Of a stretch of DNA of 64,000 bases, positions 7,250 through 60,800 are shown piece by piece. The position numbers were made by a program, and so were the translations under genes. Each line of letters starts with the position of its first letter. Position 1 is the stretch's first letter. The notes below the pieces were generated by a model. It had not been told where the DNA came from. It searched no databases and saw only the letters and a program-made list of their open reading frames with translations. The DNA is from Liolophura sinensis (Eukaryota; Mollusca; Polyplacophora; Chitonida; Chitonidae), in contig NC_088296.1 in NCBI RefSeq assembly GCF_032854445.1, forward strand, positions 28,267,064 to 28,331,063. Reading direction: 5' to 3'.

Positions 7250-7453
7250 GGCCATGAGGCTGAACCCCATTGTCATCCAGACTGGTTCTTTTTTTTTTTT
7301 TTCAATTCTGGTATGGATTGCCTGTTTACAATGTTGTTGTTTTTAAATTGTCAAATGATTTATTTAAAAAGACTGAGTACGGAAATTGTAGTTTAGGAGA
7401 GCAGGCGTCTGATGCTGCTGTAAAAGCACAACGTACATGCAATTCAGTGGAGT

Positions 7454-7508
7454 GAAATATTCTTGAGTACGGCGTAAAACACCAGTCAAGTAAATAAATA
7501 AGTAAAAA
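7454..7508 (+). mobile_element. SINE family A 3' end fragment
   Basis: GAAATATTCTTGAGTACGGC then GTAAAACACCAGTCAAGTAA with an (AAAT)n-like tail. Confidence 0.65.
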
Positions 7509-23392: not shown

Positions 23393-23576
23393 GGGGCCTC
23401 CGTGGCAGAGGGGGTTAGCACGCCAGCGCGGCGCAATGACCCAGGTGTCAAGCGTATGCTGGCTTTTTCTTCGGCCATACCTGAGAAGTTCTTAACAGCA
23501 ACCTGCTGATCGTCATATCAGTGAAATATTCTTGAGTACACCGTAAAACAACCAATCAAATAGATCAATAAATACT
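23393..23576 (+). mobile_element. SINE family A, full length
   Basis: tRNA-like head GGCCTCCGTGGCAGAGGGGG TTAGC (box A region), then the body and GTGAAATATTCTTGAGTACA, CCGTAAAACAACCAATCAAA. This is the clearest full-length copy in the window. Confidence 0.75.
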
Positions 23577-24189: not shown

Positions 24190-24363
24190 TCCAGCCGTAA
24201 ATGGAAAGGTCTGCCAGCAGCCTGTGGATGGTCGTGGGTTTCCTTCGTTCTCTTCACGGTTTCCTCCAAATGTAATGCTGTCCGCCGTCGTACAGGTGAA
24301 ATATTCTTGAGTACGGCGTAAAACACCATCAAAATAAATAAACAAACAAATAAATAAATAAAT
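24190..24363 (+). mobile_element. SINE family A, 5'-truncated
   Basis: CTGTGGATGGTCGTGGGTTT, TCGTACAGGTGAAATATTCT, then GTACGGCGTAAAACACC and an (AAAT)n tail. Confidence 0.75.
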
Positions 24364-27368: not shown

Positions 27369-27491
27369 CTGTCCTTCTTTCTATAAACAATCTAAACTTG
27401 TTAGGGGTACGCTTGTTGTCCAAGACGCCCTGACCCAGGCCTCTGTTGTCATCCTGACACAGCCTTCGATCCTTCATGATTTCAAACTAAC
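27369..27491 (-). pseudogene. MAN2A-like: Mannosidase II exon ([20 protein letters not shown]) with in-frame TAG
   Basis: The acceptor TGCCCCCTCAG precedes 27491 and the donor ACAG|GTAAAA follows 27369; phase 1 to 1. In the phase set by the upstream exon the second codon is TAG (27487-27489), where the family usually has a Gln or Trp. Then follow [20 protein letters not shown] and [23 protein letters not shown]-x-Q-D-D-x-R-G-L-x-Q-G is a hallmark of the family. A TTAG acceptor three bases inside would skip the stop but break phase. No later exon was found. Confidence 0.8.
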
Positions 27492-27905
27492 CTGAGGGGG
27501 CAAAGGTCAAAGGTGACAAATATTACAGGATAGCTGATGTGGTGAAGCAAAGGCCAATATTAGAGGCAAGCTGACCTGTGGGAGCAAAGGTCAAATGTGA
27601 CAAATATTACAGGCCAGCTGACGTGGGGGAGCAGAGGTCAAAGGTGACATATTACAGGTCAGCTGACCAGGGGGAGCAAAGGTCAAAAGTGACAAATATT
27701 ACAGTCCAGCTGACCTGGGGGAGCAAAGATCAAAGGTGACAAATATTACAGGAAAACTGACCTGGGGAACAAAGGTCAAAGATGATAGGTACATGTACTA
27801 CACATCACAACTGACGTAGTGTTTCACTGCATGTTGTCACTGACAAATTTACACCTGGTTTAGGTGTATGGTTTAAGAATATTTCGCTTGTATGACAAGA
27901 GGTCA
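27485..27905 (+). repeat. Dispersed repeat copy 2 with ~47-bp internal array
   Basis: About six copies of GGGGGAGCAAAGGTCAAAGG then TGACAAATATTACAGG..AGCTGACC, followed by a 3' part shared with 24775-25010. Its left end overlaps the mannosidase exon edge at 27491. Confidence 0.75.
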
Positions 27906-29804: not shown

Positions 29805-29941
29805 CTGGAATCCATTCAAATCAGTAAACAATCCTCTTTCCCGATTGGAGACATCTGTGTCAACCCTCATGACCAGCTCTTTGTTCTGCTATGACTTGAT
29901 GTCAACAATGTTGTGAATTTCCACACTAGAACCATCTGTAC
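29805..29941 (-). pseudogene. MAN2A-like: Mannosidase II exon (VEIHNIVDI / LFTDLNGFQ) with in-frame TAG
   Basis: The acceptor TCTGTTGACAG precedes 29941 and the donor CAG|GTAAGG follows 29805; 137 nt, phase 1 to 0. It encodes TDGSSVEIHNIVDIKS, then TAG at 29889-29891, then QNKELVMRVDTDVSNRERG and LFTDLNGFQ. Both sides match the family (VEVSNIVDI...NREI.M...FYTDLNG), so the stop sits inside a conserved exon and splicing around it is not apparent. Confidence 0.8.
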
Positions 29942-32350: not shown

Positions 32351-32443
32351 ATAGTTATTCAATTCATGTTGTAGTTATTTGGTTAGTGTCGTTGTTATTT
32401 GGTTAGTGCCATAGTTATTTGGTAAGGGCTGTATTTACTTTAC

Positions 32444-32566
32444 CTGTGCCTCCCCATCTGGTAAGAAGAGGTAGGCCCCGCTCTTTTCCTTCGCCATCTT
32501 TACCCCATACATGACAAAACTCAGCTGGATCTGTTGTTTTACACTGTCCTCCTTTGATGTCACGGA
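32444..32566 (-). pseudogene. MAN2A-like: Mannosidase II exon (KSGAYLFLPDGEAQ block)
   Basis: The acceptor TTCCCTGAACAG precedes 32566 and the donor CAG|GTAAAG follows 32444; 123 nt, phase 0-0. It encodes SVTSKEDSVKQQIQLSFVMY and AKEKSGAYLFLPDGEAQ. K-SGAYLFLPDG is a signature of Golgi alpha-mannosidase II and was the motif that identified the locus. Frame intact. Confidence 0.85.
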
Positions 32567-33124
32567 CTGTTCAGGGAAGGAATCAAAACACTGGATTAGT
32601 TCAAATGGTGCCATTTGGCTAGGTGATAACATATGATATCAGACTGTCTTCAGTGAACCTGGTAAAGAAGCTCTGCTAGTTAGCCAACAACCCATAGCAT
32701 CAGGGGAACCATCAGTCACATTCTCATCTTAAAATTATTCAGAAATTACCCACAAACTTCAGATTAAACATTTGCTGTGAAGGAGTGTGCTTAACACACA
32801 AAGTGACCAAAATAAGCCATCCAAAGGCTTATCATACTTACTAAATGCAATGTGAAAGCTAAAAAATATTCACTGTTTTTGTCCTGAACATGGTAAGCTG
32901 ATGACAAGATCAGCAAACTTAATGGTTTTAATAATCTCCTAATAATCACAAATGTGTTTATAAATTCTGAATCCACCAAAGTTATGATCAACGCCAGATT
33001 TAAGGGCATGTACACTCAACGATGCTGATTTCTCTCTTCCCGAAATATATGAATATATAATTTTGACAGTCTTGCAGTTGTAACCAGTCTTGTCCAATGA
33101 AAATTGCCTCTTCTTTATCTGTGT

Positions 33125-35454
33125 TAGCAGCCCCTTTAATTATCTGTGTAAGGGACATCATGGGAAGGTACATATACGTACTGTTAGCAGCCCTGTTTAT
33201 TATCTGTGTAAGGGACATCATGGGAAGGTACATATACATACTGTTAGCAGCCCCGTTTATTATCGGAGTAATGGACAGCAAGGGAAGGTAAATACACATG
33301 CTGTTAGCAGCCCCGTTTATTATCTGTGTAAGGGACATCATGGAAAGGTACATATACATACTGTTAGCAGCCCTGTTTATTGTCTGTGTAAGGGTCATCA
33401 TGGGAAGGTACATATACATACTGTTAGCAGCCCTGTTTATTATCTGTGTAAGGGGCATCATGGGAAGGTACATATACGTACTGTTAGCAGCCCTGTTTGT
33501 TGTCTGTGTAAGGGACATCATGGGAAGGTACATACACATACTGATAGCAGCCCCATTTATTATCTGTGTAAGGGACATCATGGGAAGGTACATATACGTA
33601 CTGTTAGCAGCTCTGTTTATTATCTGTGTAAGGGACATCATGGGAAGGTACATATGCATACTGTTAGCAGCCCCGTTTATTATCTGTGTAAGGGACATCA
33701 TGGGAAGGTACATATACGTAATGTTAGCAGCCCCGTTTATTATCTGTGTAAGGGACATGATGGGAAGGTACATATACGTACTGTTAGCAGCCCCGTTTAT
33801 TATGTGTGTAACGGACATCATGGGAAGGTACATATACGTACTGTTAGCAGCCCTGTTTATTATCTGTGTAAGGGGCATCATGGGAAGGTACATATATGTA
33901 CTGTTAGCAGGCCCGTTTATTATCTGCGTAAGGGACATCATAGGAATGCACATATGCATACTCTTAGCAGCCCCGTTTATTATCTGTGTAAGGGACATCA
34001 TGGGAAGGTACATATATGTACTGTTAGCAGGCCCGTTTATTATCTGCGTAAGGGACATCATGGGAATGTACATATACATACTGTTAGCAGCCCCGTTTAT
34101 TATCTGTGTAAGGGACATCATGGGAAAGTACATATACGTACTGTTAGCAGCCCCTTTTATTATCTGTGTAAGGGACATCATGGGAAGGTACATATATGTA
34201 CTGTTAGCAGGCCCGTGTATTATCTGTGTAAGGGGCATCATGGGAAGGTACATATACGTAATGTTAGCAGCCCCGTTTATTATCTGTGTAAGGGACATCA
34301 TGGGAAGGTACATATACATACTGTTAGCAGCCCCGTTTATTATCTAAGGGACATCATGGGAAGGTACATATATGTACTGTTAGCCGCCCCGTTTATTATC
34401 TGTGTAAGGGGCATCATGGGAAGGTACATATACGTACTGTTAGCAGCCCTGTTTTTTATCTGTGTAAGGGACATCATGGGAAGGTACATATATGTACTGT
34501 TAGCAGCCCCGTTTATTATCTGTGTAAGGGACATCATGGGAAGGTACATATACGTACTGTTAGCAGCCCCGTTTATTATCTGTGTAAGGGGCATCATGGG
34601 AAGGTACATATACATACTGTTAGCAGGCCCGTTTATTATCTGCGTAAGGGACATCATGGGAATGTACATATACATACTGTTAGCAGCCCTGTTTATTATC
34701 TGTGTAAGGGACATCATGGGAAGGTACATATATGTACTGTTAGCAGCCCTGTTTATTATCTGTGTAAGGGACATCATGGGAAGGTACATATAGGTACTGT
34801 TAGCAGCCCCGTTTATTATCTGCGTAACGGACATCATGGGAAGGTACATATACGTACTGTCAGCAGCCCCGTTTATTATCTGTGTAACGGACATCATGGG
34901 AAGGTACATATATGTACTGTTACCAGCCCCGTTTATTATCTGTGTAAGGGACATCATGGGAAGGTACATATATGTACTGTTAGCAGCCCCGTTTATTATC
35001 TGTGTACCGAACATCATGGGAAGGTACATATATGTACTGTCAGCAGCCCTGTTTATTATCTGCGTAAGGGACATCATGGGAAGGTACATATACATACTGT
35101 TAGCAGCCCTGTTTATTATCTGCGTAACGGACATCATGGGAAGGTACATATACATACTGTCAGCAGCCCTGTTTATTATCTGTGTAACGGACATCATGGG
35201 AAGGTACATATATGTACTGTTAGCAGCCCCGTTTATTACCTGTGTAAGGGACATCATGGGAAGGTACATATATGTACTGTTAGCAGCCGGACATCATGGG
35301 AAGGTACATATACGTACTGTCAGCAGCCCTGTTTATTATCTGTGTAACTGACATCATGGGAAGGTACATATGCGTACTGTTAGCAGCCCTGTTTATTATC
35401 GGAGTAACGGAGATCATGGGAAGGTACATATACGTACTGTTAGCAGCCCTGTTT
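33125..35454 (-). repeat. 60-bp array (~39 copies) containing a mannosidase exon 3' end and splice donor
   Basis: On the minus strand each unit includes AAACAGGGCTGCTAACAGTA, the last bases of the 35438 exon followed by its donor, then intronic CGTATATGTACCTTCCCATG and ATGTCCCTTACACAGATAAT. The 35454 edge is where array and exon join. Most copies are exactly 60 bp (20 codons), which is why long frames of several hundred codons appear on both strands. Short copies occur near 34345 and 35289. The motif TTACACAG before the exon-like bases also supplies an acceptor-like AG in each unit. Confidence 0.9.
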
Positions 35455-35510
35455 CACCACTAAAATCTGCACTCAGCTGAGAGTTCTCCACGGAAAACGG
35501 TTCAGGATTC
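35438..35510 (-). pseudogene. MAN2A-like: Mannosidase II exon (NPEPFSVENSQLSADFS..TGLLT); founder of the 60-bp array
   Basis: The minus strand encodes NPEPFSVENSQLSADFSGE and then TGLLT, ending phase 0 at the donor AACA|GTACGT. It continues in frame into the 32444 exon (SVTSKED), as the family does (GLL-x-S-V-T-x-K-E-D). The 5' boundary is unclear: the only nearby AG (CACGAAG) has a poor pyrimidine tract and the wrong phase for the 37718 exon, possibly further damage. The last ~19 nt of the exon and its donor recur in the adjoining 60-bp array. Confidence 0.65.
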
Positions 35511-35699
35511 TTCGTGTCAACAAGTCAGATGTATAATATACATGTGCATCAGAGAACTCAATTGTTCACACAATCACATGTACCTAGCATTAATGAGTGC
35601 ACTTTGTTGAATACATTCAAACCATGCTCGGCAGGAAAACAATATTAAATATTAACATCAGTGCTGGCAGGTTATTTTACACTGTGGTCTAGCATACCT

Positions 35700-36740
35700 G
35701 TACATCATCTCTACATGTGTTATCAGCCAGACATACCTGTACTTCATCTCTACATGTGTTATCAGTCAGACAAACCTGTACTTCATCTCTACATGTGTCA
35801 TTAGCCAGACATACCTGTACTTTATCTCTACAGGTGTTATCAGCCAGACATACCTGTACATCATCTCTACATGTGTTATCAGCCAGACATACCTGTACTT
35901 TATCTCTACAGGTGTTATCAGCCAGACATACCTGTACTTCATCTCTACATGTGTTATCAGCCAGACATACCTGTGCTTCATCTCTACATGTGTTATCAGC
36001 CAGACATACCTGTACTTCATCTTTACATGTGTTATCAGCCAGACATACCTGTACTTCATCTCTACAGGTGTTATCAGCCAGACATACCTGTATTTCATCT
36101 CTACATGTGTTATCAGCCAGACATACCTGTACTTCATCTCTACAGGTGTTATCAGCCAGACATACCTGTACTTCATCTCTACATGTGTCATTAGCCAGTC
36201 ATACCTGTACTTCATCTCTACATGTGTCATCAGCCAGTCATACCTGTACTTCATCTCTACATGTGTCATCAGCCAGACATACCTGTACTTCATCTCTAAA
36301 GGTGTTATCAGCCAGAAATACCTGTAGTTTATCTCTACATGTGTTATCAGCCAGACATAGCTGTACTTCATCTCTACATGTGTTATCAGCCAGACATACC
36401 TGTACTTCATCTCTACATGTGTTATCAGCCAGACATAGCTGTACTTCATCTCTAGATGTGTTATCAGCCAGACATACCTGTACTTCATCTTTAGATGTGT
36501 TATCAGCCAGACATACCTGTACTTTATCTCTACAGGTGTTATCAGCCAGACATACCTGTACTTCATCTCTACATGTGTTATCAGCCAGAAATACCTGTAC
36601 ATCTCTCCATGTGTTATCAGCCAGACATACCTGTACTTCATCTCTACATGTGTTATCAGCCAGACATACCTGTACTTCATCTCTATGTGTGTTATCAGCC
36701 AGACATGCCTGTATTTCATCTCTAGATGTGTTATCAGCTA
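35700..36740 (+). repeat. 39-bp tandem array (~27 copies) with a donor consensus on the minus strand
   Basis: The + strand unit is TACCTGTACTTCATCTCTAC then ATGTGTTATCAGCCAGACA, 13 codons, hence long chance frames on both strands. On the minus strand, the strand of the mannosidase gene, nearly every copy reads GAAGTACAG|GTATGTCTGG, a strong splice-donor match. It lies in the intron between the 37718 and 35438 exons. Confidence 0.9.
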
Positions 36741-41538: not shown

Positions 41539-41796
41539 CTAAAACAATACAATTAAACACAATTTTACACTCTATAATACAATCTGAATGTGTAAATTGT
41601 ATATTTTCTTTTATCTCATCTAACTGTATCCTTCTGCAACAAATTTAAGGAGAGTGGATTTCTCTCCACACTGTACATTCTGACATTGTCTAAGAAAATG
41701 TTCTGACCATGATGTACATAAACAAGCTCTCTAACACACATTCAGGGCCAAGTAGCTGTTTGACTAAAGTGTCTTACGAGTTTATTTATTTTTTTT

Positions 41797-41875
41797 TTTT
41801 GATTGGTGTTTTACGTCACTCTCTGGAATATTTCACTTATACCATGGCGGCCAGCATTATGGTGGGAGGAGACTC
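41797..41875 (+). mobile_element. SINE family A fragment (inverted)
   Basis: TTGATTGGTGTTTTACGTCA, AATATTTCACTTATACCATG, GGCGGCCAGCATTATGGTGG. Confidence 0.75.
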
Positions 41876-46015: not shown

Positions 46016-46403
46016 CAGGAAATGTCCTGCATAAAAATATCATTTTGACTGGGTTGACTGTAACAGGACAAAACCGCCAAATAACACTAACTTTTTTCAG
46101 AATGTAAAAAGCTGGAAGATATCATCTTATCATGCACCAGTTTAAAAATCATTCCCAGGCCTACAGTACAACTGTTATCTTATGCTACATGAATCATAAA
46201 TACTTCAACCCTATATCGGCCACAATGTTCATATATGCAAGAAGCTGAGAGGAAACCATCACACCAAGCTGTACCTGTCTTCTGAAGAGAGCATGCATTA
46301 TACACATCATTTAAACAATTTGTACACGGACACTTCACCTCACATGGTACTCCGTGATCCTGTCTAGGCTTTTGTAGAAGGGGCGTGGGGTGGGGTGAAA
46401 TAC

Positions 46404-46551
46404 CCACTCCAGTAGTGGTCCTCGTGATCAGAATATCTAAAGAAATCCTCGCTCAGCACCGCGTAGTCCTTGGGCAAAAATCGTGTTCAGGTTCGAGCTG
46501 AGATCTCTGTGTCACAGCATTGAAAAAGTCCTTCAGGGTGCCAAATTGCAG
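46404..46551 (-). pseudogene. MAN2A-like: Mannosidase II exon (FGTLKDFFNAV / DHYWSGYF), frameshifted
   Basis: The acceptor CTGTCTACAG precedes 46551. Reading starts LQFGTLKDFFNAVTQRSQ in phase with the 48000 exon, but by about 46475-46500 it leaves the family frame and meets TGA. In the next frame the homology resumes as [19 protein letters not shown] and then EDHYWSGYF, the conserved family block. A one-base net indel is needed. The donor is probably GG|GTATTT at 46403. Confidence 0.7.
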
Positions 46552-46649
46552 CTGTAGACAGAAAAAAGTCACCTGTGTCAACCTGAAACATTGATTGGGC
46601 TTCTAGGAGGACTGGATGATCCAATCATTAGGTGTGTCATATCAGAGGT

Positions 46650-47999
46650 CCACTATACAATATAGGACTTACCTCAGCATTTAACTCTGGTCTAGCATTG
46701 GTATAATCAAACAGCCTCTGGTAGTTGTTGAACTGGTTGTACCATTCATCGGTTTGTAATATCTGAGGTCCACTATACAATATAGGACTTACCTCAGCAT
46801 TTAACTCTGCTCTACCATTGGTATGATCAAACAGCCTCTGGTAGTTGTTGAACTGGTTGTACCATTCATCGGTTTGTAGTATCTGAGGTCCACTATACAA
46901 TATATGACTTACCTCAGCATTTAACTCTGGTCTACCATTGATATGATCAAACAGCCTCTGGTAGTTGTTGAACTGGTTGTACCATTCATCAGGTTTGTAA
47001 TATCTGAGGTCCACTATACAATAAAGGACTTACCTCAGCATTTAACTCTGGTCTACCATTGATATGATCAAACAGCCTCTGGTAGTTGTTGAACTGGTTG
47101 TACCATTCATCGGTTTGTCATATCTGAGGTCCACTATACAACACATGACTTACCTCAGCATTTAACTCTGGTCTACCACTGATATGATCAAACAGCCTCT
47201 GGTAGTTGTTGAACTGGTTGTACCATTCATCAGGTTTGTTATATCTGAGGTCCACTATACAATATATAACTTACCTCAGCATTTAACTCTGGTCTACCAT
47301 TGATATGATCAAACAGCCTCTGGTAGTTGTTGAACTGGTTGTACCATTCATCAGGTTTGTTATATCTGAGGTCCACTATACAATATATAACTTACCTCAG
47401 CATTTAACTCTGGTCTACCATTGATATGATCAAACAGCCTCTGGTAGTTGTTGAACTGGTTGTACCATTAATCGGTTTGTCATATCTGAGGTGCACTATA
47501 CAATATATGACTTACCTCAGCATTTAACCCTGGTCTACCATTGATATGATCAAACAGCCTCTGGTAGTTGTTGAACTGGTTGTACCATTTATCAGGTTTG
47601 TAATATCTGAGGTCCACTATACAACATATGACTTACCTCTGCATTTAACTCTGGTCTAGCATTGGTATGATCAAACAGCCTCTGGTAGTTGTTGAACTGG
47701 TTTTCCCATTCATCAGGTTTGTCATATCTGAGGTCCACTATACAATATATGACTTACCTCAGCATTTAACTCTGGTCTAGCATTGGTATGATCAAACAGT
47801 CTCTGGTAGTTGTTGAACTGGTTTTCCCATTCATCAGGTTTGTCATATCTGAGGTCCACTATACAATATATGACTTACCTCAGCATTTAACTCTGCTCTA
47901 GCATTGGTATGATCAAACAGCCTCTGGTAGTTGTTGAACTGGTTTTCCCATTCATCAGGTTTGTCATATCTGAGGTCCACTATACAATATATGACTTAC
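46650..47999 (-). repeat. 11 tandem partial copies of the mannosidase exon plus splice donor (~120 bp each)
   Basis: Each unit carries, on the minus strand, an acceptor-like GGACCTCAG, about 90 nt homologous to the 3' half of the 48000-48177 exon ([16 protein letters not shown]...LNAE) and the same GAG|GTAAGT donor plus ~28 nt of intron. With the true exon there are 12 donors spaced 120-122 bp. In copies with ATATTACAAACCG the segment between AG and GT is 90 nt and in frame; in copies with ATATGACAAACCTG it is 91 nt. The last three units (46637-47014) are open throughout, including the intronic part. Confidence 0.9.
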
Positions 48000-48177
48000 C
48001 TCAGCATTTAACTCTGACCTAGCATTGATATGAGCAAACAGCCTCTGGTTGTTGTTGAACTGGTTGTCCCATTCATCAGGTTTGTCATATCTAAAGTTGT
48101 CTCCCAAAGGCGCCAGTAATATATCATTCTTATACAGCTGGGCTTTCTGTCTGTACTGGTCCAAGATCATTTCAGCC
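48000..48177 (-). pseudogene. MAN2A-like: Mannosidase II exon ([13 protein letters not shown] block)
   Basis: The acceptor TGTTTTCACAG precedes 48177 and the donor GAG|GTAAGT follows 48000; 178 nt, phase 2 to 0. It encodes [34 protein letters not shown] and [15 protein letters not shown], matching the family's conserved LAPLGDDFRY...EWD...NYQ.LF block in the catalytic domain. This copy is intact. It is the source of the 11 partial copies downstream (46650-47990). Confidence 0.8.
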
Positions 48178-48289
48178 CTGTGAAAACACAGATTTAGGAT
48201 TCATTTATTTACTTAAGGGACTTTAAATGCTGAACAAAATGCACTCATTTTACAGGTATTATTTAATACCAAGGCAAAGAATGTCTGTG

Positions 48290-48385
48290 GGTGTGTGGTT
48301 CCCTTCCATCATAACACTGGCTGCCGCCTGGTAAGTGAAATATTCTTGAGTACGACATAAAACACCAATCAATCAAACAAATATA
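48290..48385 (+). mobile_element. SINE family A 3' fragment
   Basis: AAGTGAAATATTCTTGAGTA then CGACATAAAACACCAATCAA and an (ATCAA)n tail. Confidence 0.65.
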
Positions 48386-48512
48386 TAAAATACACATGTG
48401 GCTGAATGGGCAGGGTGCCTTTTACATGTACAGTACCTTCACAATAATCACAGGCACTCGGTAATAAAGATACACTGAAAGTAAACATGTAAACATCAGA
48501 CAGTCTCCTGTG

Positions 48513-57800: not shown

Positions 57801-60800
57801 AATACAAATATGAGTTGCATTTGATTCTTAACCAAACGCATTGGGCCTGTATTTTTCGAAAAATGAAGACAAAGAGAAGGGGAAATTCGCCACTGGCCTA
57901 ACTGTCATCCCGGCGAAATAACATGCACATGAGACAGAATAACGATTCGCACAATGCATGGCTCTTTCGAGTTAACAATGTGACAGATTTAAAGCGAACA
58001 GTAAGTCTAGTAAAATGTCTTCCTCTCTATCGATGATATATTATAGAGTATTCGTAATTTAAATAATAACGTAAAAAAGTTAATTTTCAGACATGTTTCT
58101 AAATATAGCGACTTGAGTGCCTTGATGTTCGATAGGAATCCATGGATATTCGACTATCCACTCAAAGGCAGATAAATGTCAATGGACGTCTGGAAATCTT
58201 AACCTAATCTACATCTAGATGGCGTTTGAAATAGCAGCCCAATGGTGTTATCTTCATGCCAAGAAAAGGAATTGATTAGCAATAATGTCACAGTAATATT
58301 GTGTAGGTTACTGGACTTTTTAGCCTAATCGGATTTTAGAATGAATAAATTCAACAGCCATACCACGTTGCGGAGCTTTTTAAAAGGTTCGCAAATAAAT
58401 TGGGCACCAGGAAAGAGACCTTTGATTCCTAGTATGATTGGTGTTTTACACCGCAATTGAGAATAGTTCACTTGAACGACGGCCTCCAGAATTACGGCGG
58501 GAGGAAACGGGGCAGTGTGGGGGAAAGAACTAGACTATAACATAGCCATAATCTGACGCCACTCCAAATGTTTATATTCACCAAACTGGAAGTCATGCTT
58601 GTGTACTGTATGTATCCTCACCATTGATTCGAAAATGTTTACAGAACAAAACACGTGTCTGTTCATCCTTTTGTCTCCATAGCACGTAATGACTTGTGAA
58701 TAATAAAGACAATAATGCCATATTGAAAAAAAAATGTACCTTGTACATAGATGGCAAGCCAGACTTTGCTTACGGCCATTTTAAATTGGAATCAGCCCCT
58801 CGCGGCATGGTCCAGGGGAAGATAATCTTGTGAAATTTTGGGATTGAAATGAAAGATGCACTTCATTAAAATGGCGATAGTCGAATTTTTTTGCTAGTCT
58901 TATCTTTAATTTTTTCAAGCAAAGGACAGAATTAAGAATAAGCGACTATCGTGAAAAAAAATGTGACGTAAGAGAAGCTGAGTTGAATCTTACATCGGAG
59001 TCACGTGATTCGAAAATGCCGGTTTACGACGCAGTCCGAATGGATCCGTCGCGTTTACTTTTGTGTTAATTGCAACTTAATGGTCTTTATTATTCCACCT
59101 TAATCATGTAATACTAATTCAGAATTATTCATAATAACACTGGGCCCACCAATAGGTATTCATACTAACACTGGGCCCACCAGTAGGTATTCATAGTAAC
59201 ACGGCCCATCAGTAGGTATTCATACTAACACTGGGCCCACCAATAGGTATTCATACTAACACTGGGCCCACCAATAGGTACTCATAGTAACACTGGGTCC
59301 ACCAGTAGGTATTCATACTAACACTGGGCCCACCAATAGGTATTCATACTAACACTGGGCCCACCAATAGGTATTCATACTAACACTGGGCCCACCAATC
59401 CTGTTTTCTTGCTCTAACTTCTCGGTGATGACCGCCAAGCAAGGCAGCATCTAATACCACTTTCAAAGTGTTTGTTATGACCAGACCCAAGTGTGAGGTT
59501 CCTCGATTTCGAGGCAGACGTTCTACCCGTTAGGTCTCCCAAGCTGTTTAAAAGTATTCTTATGACAAACGTTCTCACAAACAAAAAACAGTGAATATTT
59601 GCCATCTAGACGACATGAAATTCTGATTGACCCCTTGCTTTACCCTATAGTTAGGTCATGCTCATACATGGAACAGTTTCACCGATTTTTGTTCATATTT
59701 ATTCAGTGTTGTTGTTGTACCTCTGAGTTCCCGGTTTTTACCGGTTTCGAACCACTTTATGTGTTAGTTGCCTTAGACATGTGAAGCCACGGGGATCAGC
59801 ATTTGTGGAAATATTATCATGTAAGTGTCTATTTAATAGCCGATTTGACTTTGTATAGTGTGTTCTTTGAAAAAAAAAAACGCCATTTTAACCACCGCCA
59901 TAGCGCACATGATCGCACATTTTAAACTCTCACACTTCGCTTCCCGCAAATTTTTAAGTTGAATTGATCTGTTCGCTTTATAATGATGCACTTTATAATA
60001 TTCACTTTAAAAAAGATATTTTATTTCGAGAAACATGGGTTTTGTTCAGTTCTCGGTCTCCATTTCAAAGCTGCCATTTCCATGCTGCTTCAACAGGCCC
60101 TTGGAGTGATGTCCCTTTTGTTAAGCGGCATTCGGGAATGAAAATAATGTGACGTCTGAGTATACCTTGTTACTGGCAGTATACGGCCCATAAAGCCTAC
60201 CTTGACATTTGGGAATGAAAGTAATGTGACGTCAGAGTATACCTTGTTACTGGCAGCATACAGCCCATAAAGACTTCCTTGACGTTCGGGAATGAAGGTA
60301 ATGTGACGTCAGAATATACCTTGTTACTGGCAGTATACGGCCCATAAAGACTTCCTTGACATCCGGGAATGAAAGTAATGTGACGTCAGAGTATACCTTG
60401 TTACTGGCAGTATACGGCCCATAAAGACTACCTTGACATTTGGGAATGAAAGTAATGTGACGTCAGAGTATACCTTGTTACTGACAGCATACAGCCCATA
60501 AAGCCTACCTTGACATTCGGGAATGAAAGTAATGTGACGTCAGAGTATACCTTGTTACTGGCAGTGTACGGCCCATAAAGACTATCTTGACATTCGGGAA
60601 TGAAAGTAATGTGACGTCAGAGTATGCCTTGTTACTGGCAGTATACGGCCCATAAAGCCTACCTTGACATTCGGGAATGAAAGTAATGTGACGTCAGAGT
60701 ATACCTTGTTACTGGCAGTATACGGCCCATAAAGCCTACCTTGACATTTGGGAATGAAAGTAATGTGACGTCAGAATATACCTTGTTACTGGCAGTATAC

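Follow-up and report, generated by a model that had tools for sequence, protein, structure and literature searches.

This study concerns a 60-bp tandem array in a 64,000-nucleotide stretch of the genome of the chiton Liolophura sinensis (NC_088296.1, positions 28,267,064 to 28,331,063), referred to here as the window, with positions counted from its first letter. The unit of the array joins the end of an exon, its splice donor and the start of the following intron, and the host gene on the minus strand is, by homology, a Golgi alpha-mannosidase II-like gene of the GH38 family. Judged by its sequence, the array is a mirage, a known but rare kind of repeat, and a new case of it in a mollusc. We consider it highly probable that this is a mirage-type minisatellite on a mannosidase II-like exon end, situated in a decayed copy of the gene and without a selected role in splicing. 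The single array is a relic, and the main interest is the frequency of such boundary arrays in this mollusc; in the stretches sampled, they look several times commoner than chance. The array and the two exons that flank it are the following, with the method of detection in parentheses (TRF, Tandem Repeats Finder):

33122..35454, minus strand: 60-bp array of exon end, donor and intron start, 40 unit anchors (TRF and anchor scan).
35438..35516, minus strand: E7, a remnant exon, on whose 3' end and donor (ACA/GTACGT) the array is founded (homology).
32441..32569, minus strand: E8 (QSVTSKEDSVKQQIQLSFVMYG...), the coding exon that follows E7 downstream, beyond the array (homology).

The array is real and lies where the initial annotation of this stretch had placed it. 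TRF reports 36.2 copies with 91% matches at 33122-35288, and overlapping rows with periods of 60, 100 and 160 bp extend the array up to 35454. On the minus strand, 40 unit anchors follow one another from 35454 down to 33138, with gaps of 60 nt in 37 of 39 cases, one of 40 nt and one of 56 nt. The unit is composed of 17 nt of exon end (AAACRGGGCTGCTAACA) and 43 nt of intron start, which opens with GTACGT and contains an acceptor-like TTACACAG. Unit 1 is the exon end proper, GTG/AAACAGGGCTGCTAACA/GTACGT, with 35438 as the final exon base, and the final unit is incomplete and ends at 33122 without a donor. For the evaluation of the splice signals, 38 stretches of 60 nt were scored in the window, with the incomplete final unit counted in and two shorter units excluded. 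A GT is present at the donor position in 34 of these 38 stretches, the AG of the acceptor-like motif likewise in 34, and both together in 32, which agrees with the 22-nt cassettes bracketed by AG and GT that had been described for the array units; the longer donor motif GTACG is found in 11. An earlier estimate of about 39 donors is right in that one donor has been multiplied, and the count should be stated as at least 34 GT dinucleotides.

From 48.2 down to 27.3 kb, the minus strand carries exons that match alpha-mannosidase II (GH38), and the top solved structures, including 1qwu, bear that title. Because the exons on either side of the array encode ...FSVENSQLSADFSGETGLLT and then SVTSKEDSVKQQIQLSFVMYGVKM, the former being the end of the array-bearing exon, the donor at 35438 is by homology the true exon end. 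The proposal that the array was founded on a true exon end and its donor is thus upheld by the homology of the exon to GH38 enzymes, together with the boundary and first unit that five paralogous copies have in common. The proposed 5' limit of the exon at 35510, however, is not a true boundary. The limit of 35516 given above is likewise merely the point at which the alignment resumes, and the acceptor of E7 has been deleted in the window copy, whereas the four other copies compared keep CTTTTCAG.

With a 120-nt query, at least 59 matches to the unit were obtained in total; they fall at five loci on a single contig, each locus being a segmental copy of the C-terminal gene half. These copies are divided here into group A (the window, c28068 and c27832) and group B (c24371 and c23206); in aligned stretches, the identity to the window is 86-97% within group A and 82-93% (mostly 85-90%) between the groups. 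The array stands at the same exon end in all five, with 40, 12, 41, 23 and 10 anchors, where one 120-nt gap in c23206 hides one more unit, and in each of them the homology of the first unit to the array extends over its full 60 bp, 17 of them exon and 43 intron. Since the five copies bear the array at an identical exon end, the comparison shows it to predate the copying and thus to be older than their split. In a sixth copy at C2:23.25 Mb, the exon and the array are both gone, and the alignment leaps from inside the adjoining 39-bp array to about 12 nt beyond the 3' edge of the 60-bp array. The copy number is therefore unstable among the paralogous copies, with 10-41 anchors in five and none in the sixth. 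A partial copy at C2:23.187-23.193 Mb contains exons E1-E4 only.

We regard the window copy as a very probable pseudogene, because it has lost the E7 acceptor, carries stops and frameshifts in its exons and shows no N-terminal exons upstream by tblastn, so that effects on splicing at this locus are probably moot. The exons concerned are:

48000..48182, minus strand: E1, the first detectable exon, ending in ...NAE (homology).
46320..46620, minus strand: E2 region (copy alignment).
29811..29927, minus strand: E9, with an in-frame TAG at 29891-29889 (homology and copy alignment).
27379..27491, minus strand: E11, with an in-frame TAG at 27489-27487 (homology and copy alignment).

E2 contains a 1-nt deletion that the window, c28068 and c27832 have in common relative to c24371 and c23206, as well as a 5-nt insertion private to the window copy. 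The TAG of E9 corresponds to CAG in both group-B copies, that of E11 to CAG in the two other group-A copies, and E10 of the window copy has a 2-nt deletion. Group B is damaged too: E10 lacks 2 nt and contains a stop, E11 is not recognisable, and E8 of c24371 lacks 1 nt. A tblastn search of the window upstream of E1 (15.8 kb) found no N-terminal exons. Undamaged-looking mannosidase II-like N-terminal exons (aa 123-334) are present at C2:25.694-25.700 Mb (L007, C2:25690001-25700000), and no C-terminal exons were found by tblastn in the 20 kb that follow, which hold 200 N (L008); these exons are possibly part of a split parent gene or the result of a scaffold error. Two other GH38 genes, L005 (C6 4.31 Mb) and L006 (C11 16.97 Mb), each have one open frame (1086 and 1095 aa, respectively) and are apparently intronless.

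The initial annotation had stated that no standard element behaves in this way, which does not hold, since the mirages of lancelets in Adh3, globin, troponin C and PGBD5 genes are of the same kind. In the two papers concerned, mirages are exon-boundary minisatellites, described in the globin genes BflGb6 and BflGb9 along with earlier work on Adh3 (PMC3087553), in PGBD5 as repeats of 60 and 108 bp over splice sites (PMC3902484), and also in troponin C, and they are suggested not to disturb splicing (PMC3087553, PMC3902484). The units measure 10-160 bp, many of them keep AG and GT, and the copy number varies. The 60-bp array resembles them as follows: by homology its unit contains a real exon-intron boundary, both dinucleotides are kept in many units (34 of 38 for each), and the number of units differs among the paralogous copies. 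It differs in size from the BflGb6 haplotypes, for which 6 and 3 units are given as opposed to about 40 here, and further in that the host is a mollusc, the gene copy is decayed and the boundary arrays exceed chance in the sampled windows. The molluscan identity of the host agrees with eight consecutive genomic matches to molluscan haemocyanin (PF14830), a family known only from molluscs and without a match in any of 14 control genomes, which speaks against a lancelet as the source. Searches for literature on such arrays in molluscs or gastropods, with narrow word combinations and few subscription journals covered, returned none. A minisatellite is also said to give multiple splice donors in an interferon-induced transcript, going by the title of a 1995 paper of Turri et al., and the gene in question is presumably human 6-16/IFI6. 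Taken by this title, that minisatellite of repeated splice donors is like the chiton array, with the difference that the repeat there supplies donors of a transcript, whereas the chiton array is known from sequence alone.

Boundary arrays are not restricted to E7, and three of the eight non-overlapping arrays of the gene in the window (TRF score of at least 100) are placed on splice boundaries. Besides the 60-bp array, the arrays of interest are:

46621..48092, minus strand: 121-bp array of about 12 units, repeating the 3' end and GTAAGT donor of E1 (TRF).
27519..27785, minus strand: 47-bp array repeating the E11 acceptor (TTTGACCTTTGCTCCCCCAG/GTCAG) (TRF).
35693-36738: 39-bp array adjoining the 60-bp array (TRF).

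The E1 array has 12 anchors in the window and 4-6 in the other copies, the stretch of c24371 beginning inside its array. The consensus unit of the 39-bp array, which reaches 58 units in the sixth copy (L018), holds a strong donor-like CAGGTATGT, and no exon was found beside this array. The ordinary intronic minisatellites of the gene (39, 50, 34 and 38 bp) are likewise arranged head-to-tail and have other lengths in some of the paralogous copies; unlike the 60-bp array, their units contain no recognised exon boundary.

Two GH38 genes elsewhere in the genome, chosen without prior knowledge of their arrays, bear boundary arrays as well. The first, labelled here as presumably MAN2C1-like, has a donor array of 53 bp x 43.8 on the exon ...VVLDTIKR/GTAAGT, for which there was no match in solved structures, and the second, which we take to be MAN2B-like, has a donor array of 31 bp x 8 and an acceptor array of 46 bp x 25. 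Outside GH38, ten family windows were taken from the loci richest in exon matches, seven for PF00118, one for PF01496 and two for PF00171, with L033 excluded because its repeats had already been seen. These windows hold 22 arrays, six of which cross a splice boundary, and L024 and L030 are without any array. Boundary arrays are present in the CCT gene L023 (one), the CCT zeta-like gene L026 (one), the CCT gene L027 (three) and the aldehyde dehydrogenase-like gene L032. That of the CCT zeta-like gene measures 36 bp x 26, and the joined exons align gap-free to T-complex protein 1 subunit zeta. A V-ATPase subunit a-like gene outside the sample (L033 901-3581, C1:1357001-1364000) carries an array of 128 bp x 21 on an exon end and its donor, and here the joined exons align gap-free to V-type proton ATPase subunit a 4. 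In both of these genes the matched exons read open.

Taken together, the ten family and four GH38 windows (14 windows, 138 kb) contain 28 arrays, of which nine are boundary-spanning. Random placement of the founders would lead to an expectation of 1.5, 2.0 or 2.7, depending on whether the exon number is taken as found, x1.5 or x2 (P 5e-6, 9e-5 and 5e-4), and for the ten family windows alone, the six of 22 compare with 1.3, 1.8 or 2.3 (P 0.0009, 0.005 and 0.02). Not included in the 28 are rows with a TRF score below 100 or a period below 15, overlapping rows, L033 (3 arrays) and the study window itself. Boundary-spanning status was judged by eye and not blind, the exon lists consist of hidden Markov model and tblastn matches, and all windows come from one genome. 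The weakest of the nine is the 41-bp acceptor array of L027, which ends at the acceptor with little exon in its unit and was counted as spanning. A 79-bp array in L031 (7559-7795), directly after the last matched aldehyde dehydrogenase-like codons, was counted as not splice-spanning and probably repeats the stop codon along with the first part of the 3' untranslated region. No tandem exon ends of the kind visible for PF01496 were detected among 81 PF00063 matches (65 of 213 candidates scored), where the nearest pair of the same part is about 1 kb apart, or among 99 PF00067 matches (92 of 386 candidates scored); this listing method detects only units with a long exon part, and the result counts against mirages of that type being common. 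We lean slightly towards the view that minisatellites are seeded at exon-intron boundaries, mostly at donors, several times above chance throughout the genome of this mollusc.

Presumably, some 60 bp comprising the 3' end of the mannosidase II-like exon together with its donor were duplicated early on, and this duplication would then have expanded into the intron by slippage or unequal exchange. The unit nearest the exon would have kept its place as the real exon end and the units after it would have turned into intron, so that, if the gene were transcribed, the donor adjoining the exon would be used and the remaining units would be spliced out, leaving the multiplied donors at this locus without a selected role. 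At both founder breakpoints of the group-B copies, in the exon just before the array and in the intron just after it, the 5-nt direct repeat TGAAA is found, which would be expected of a founding duplication made between short repeats, by slippage or by end joining, and is suggestive only. Replication slippage starting at the boundary, as proposed initially, thereby becomes plausible and falls short of proof. Several points weigh against this account. The TGAAA repeat has been read in the group-B pair only, and a unit formed from it should have one base more than the unit has. For expansion after the copying, the evidence is the copy number alone, since the units are not clearly more alike within a locus than between loci: their identity is 0.888 within the window and 0.844-0.894 against the other four loci, and given these values, concerted evolution is not claimed. 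The use of the first donor is something that we infer. Moreover, the decay calls come from one assembly, in which some of the frameshifts could be errors, although the stop-codon substitutions and the lesions common to several copies make this unlikely for all of them.

In all 13 boundary arrays, ten are on donors and three on acceptors. This bias may be explained by the consequences for the protein: with the exon-proximal donor in use, everything behind it would be intron and the protein unchanged, whereas duplicated acceptors would provide an earlier AG and would more likely be harmful. The argument would cover the excess of donors and not the preference for a boundary over the intron interior, which would require a mutational preference for exon edges or some advantage.

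As a rival reading, the array at the window locus would be functional, its donors acting, as had been suggested for it, as decoys or U1 binders, and thereby tuning splicing or 3' processing. The joint presence of AG and GT in 32 of the 38 scored stretches and the recurrence of boundary arrays in several genes would agree with such a role. However, in 120 stretches from the five copies, with incomplete final units scored along with the others, the four splice-dinucleotide columns have a mean conservation of 0.933 as compared with 0.930 over all 60 columns, and 61% of random sets of four columns do equally well (P 0.61). A maintained role as decoy or U1 binder is disfavoured because the splice columns show no excess conservation, the compared gene copies are decayed and the sixth copy has lost the array together with the exon; the roughly fourfold variation in copy number among the five copies speaks against it too, as do the lancelet papers, which suggest normal splicing. 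We therefore consider a functional array improbable. Effects on splicing in a living gene with such an array are compatible with these data, including the conservation test.

We give still less credence to the idea that the array represents a step towards the gain of introns or exons, with units to be recruited as new exons, as modelled for the lancelet globins in PMC3087553. The AG and GT of its units would allow this. The 22-nt cassette, however, is not a multiple of 3 and is short for exon definition, the host gene copy has decayed, and no recruited unit is hinted at when the exons of the five copies are aligned. Least probable of all is a satellite that arose in the intron independently of the exon, met it by chance and shares bases with it coincidentally, for which the 39-, 34-, 50- and 38-bp arrays of the gene without an exon boundary in their units could serve as precedent, but which is contradicted by the homology of the entire first unit to the array in all five copies and by a boundary pattern in other genes that exceeds random placement.

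The hosts of the boundary arrays are three mannosidase-type genes, three chaperonin genes, one aldehyde dehydrogenase-like gene and one V-ATPase gene. If the pattern proves true genome-wide, splice junctions would be hot spots at which small tandem duplications start or are kept, essential genes such as those for CCT and V-ATPase would be included, and cephalochordates would not be special in this regard. One would then ask what makes tandem duplications begin at exon edges or persist there, what puts donors ahead of acceptors, and how the splicing of essential genes deals with at least 20 copies of a donor. Boundary arrays also offer naturally occurring cases for a long-standing idea, the origin of introns and exons by duplication across splice sites.

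Two further observations were made in the course of the analysis. A dispersed repeat of about 50-150 bp is common to L007-L009 and the window, where copies are located at 1923-2039, 7451-7507, 23511-23572, 24197-24343, 41783-41870, 48273-48392 and 58435-58526. On G000:C99, seven mitochondrial COX1 matches lie about 15.5 kb apart and represent a tandem mitochondrial genome copy, which is probably an assembly artefact.
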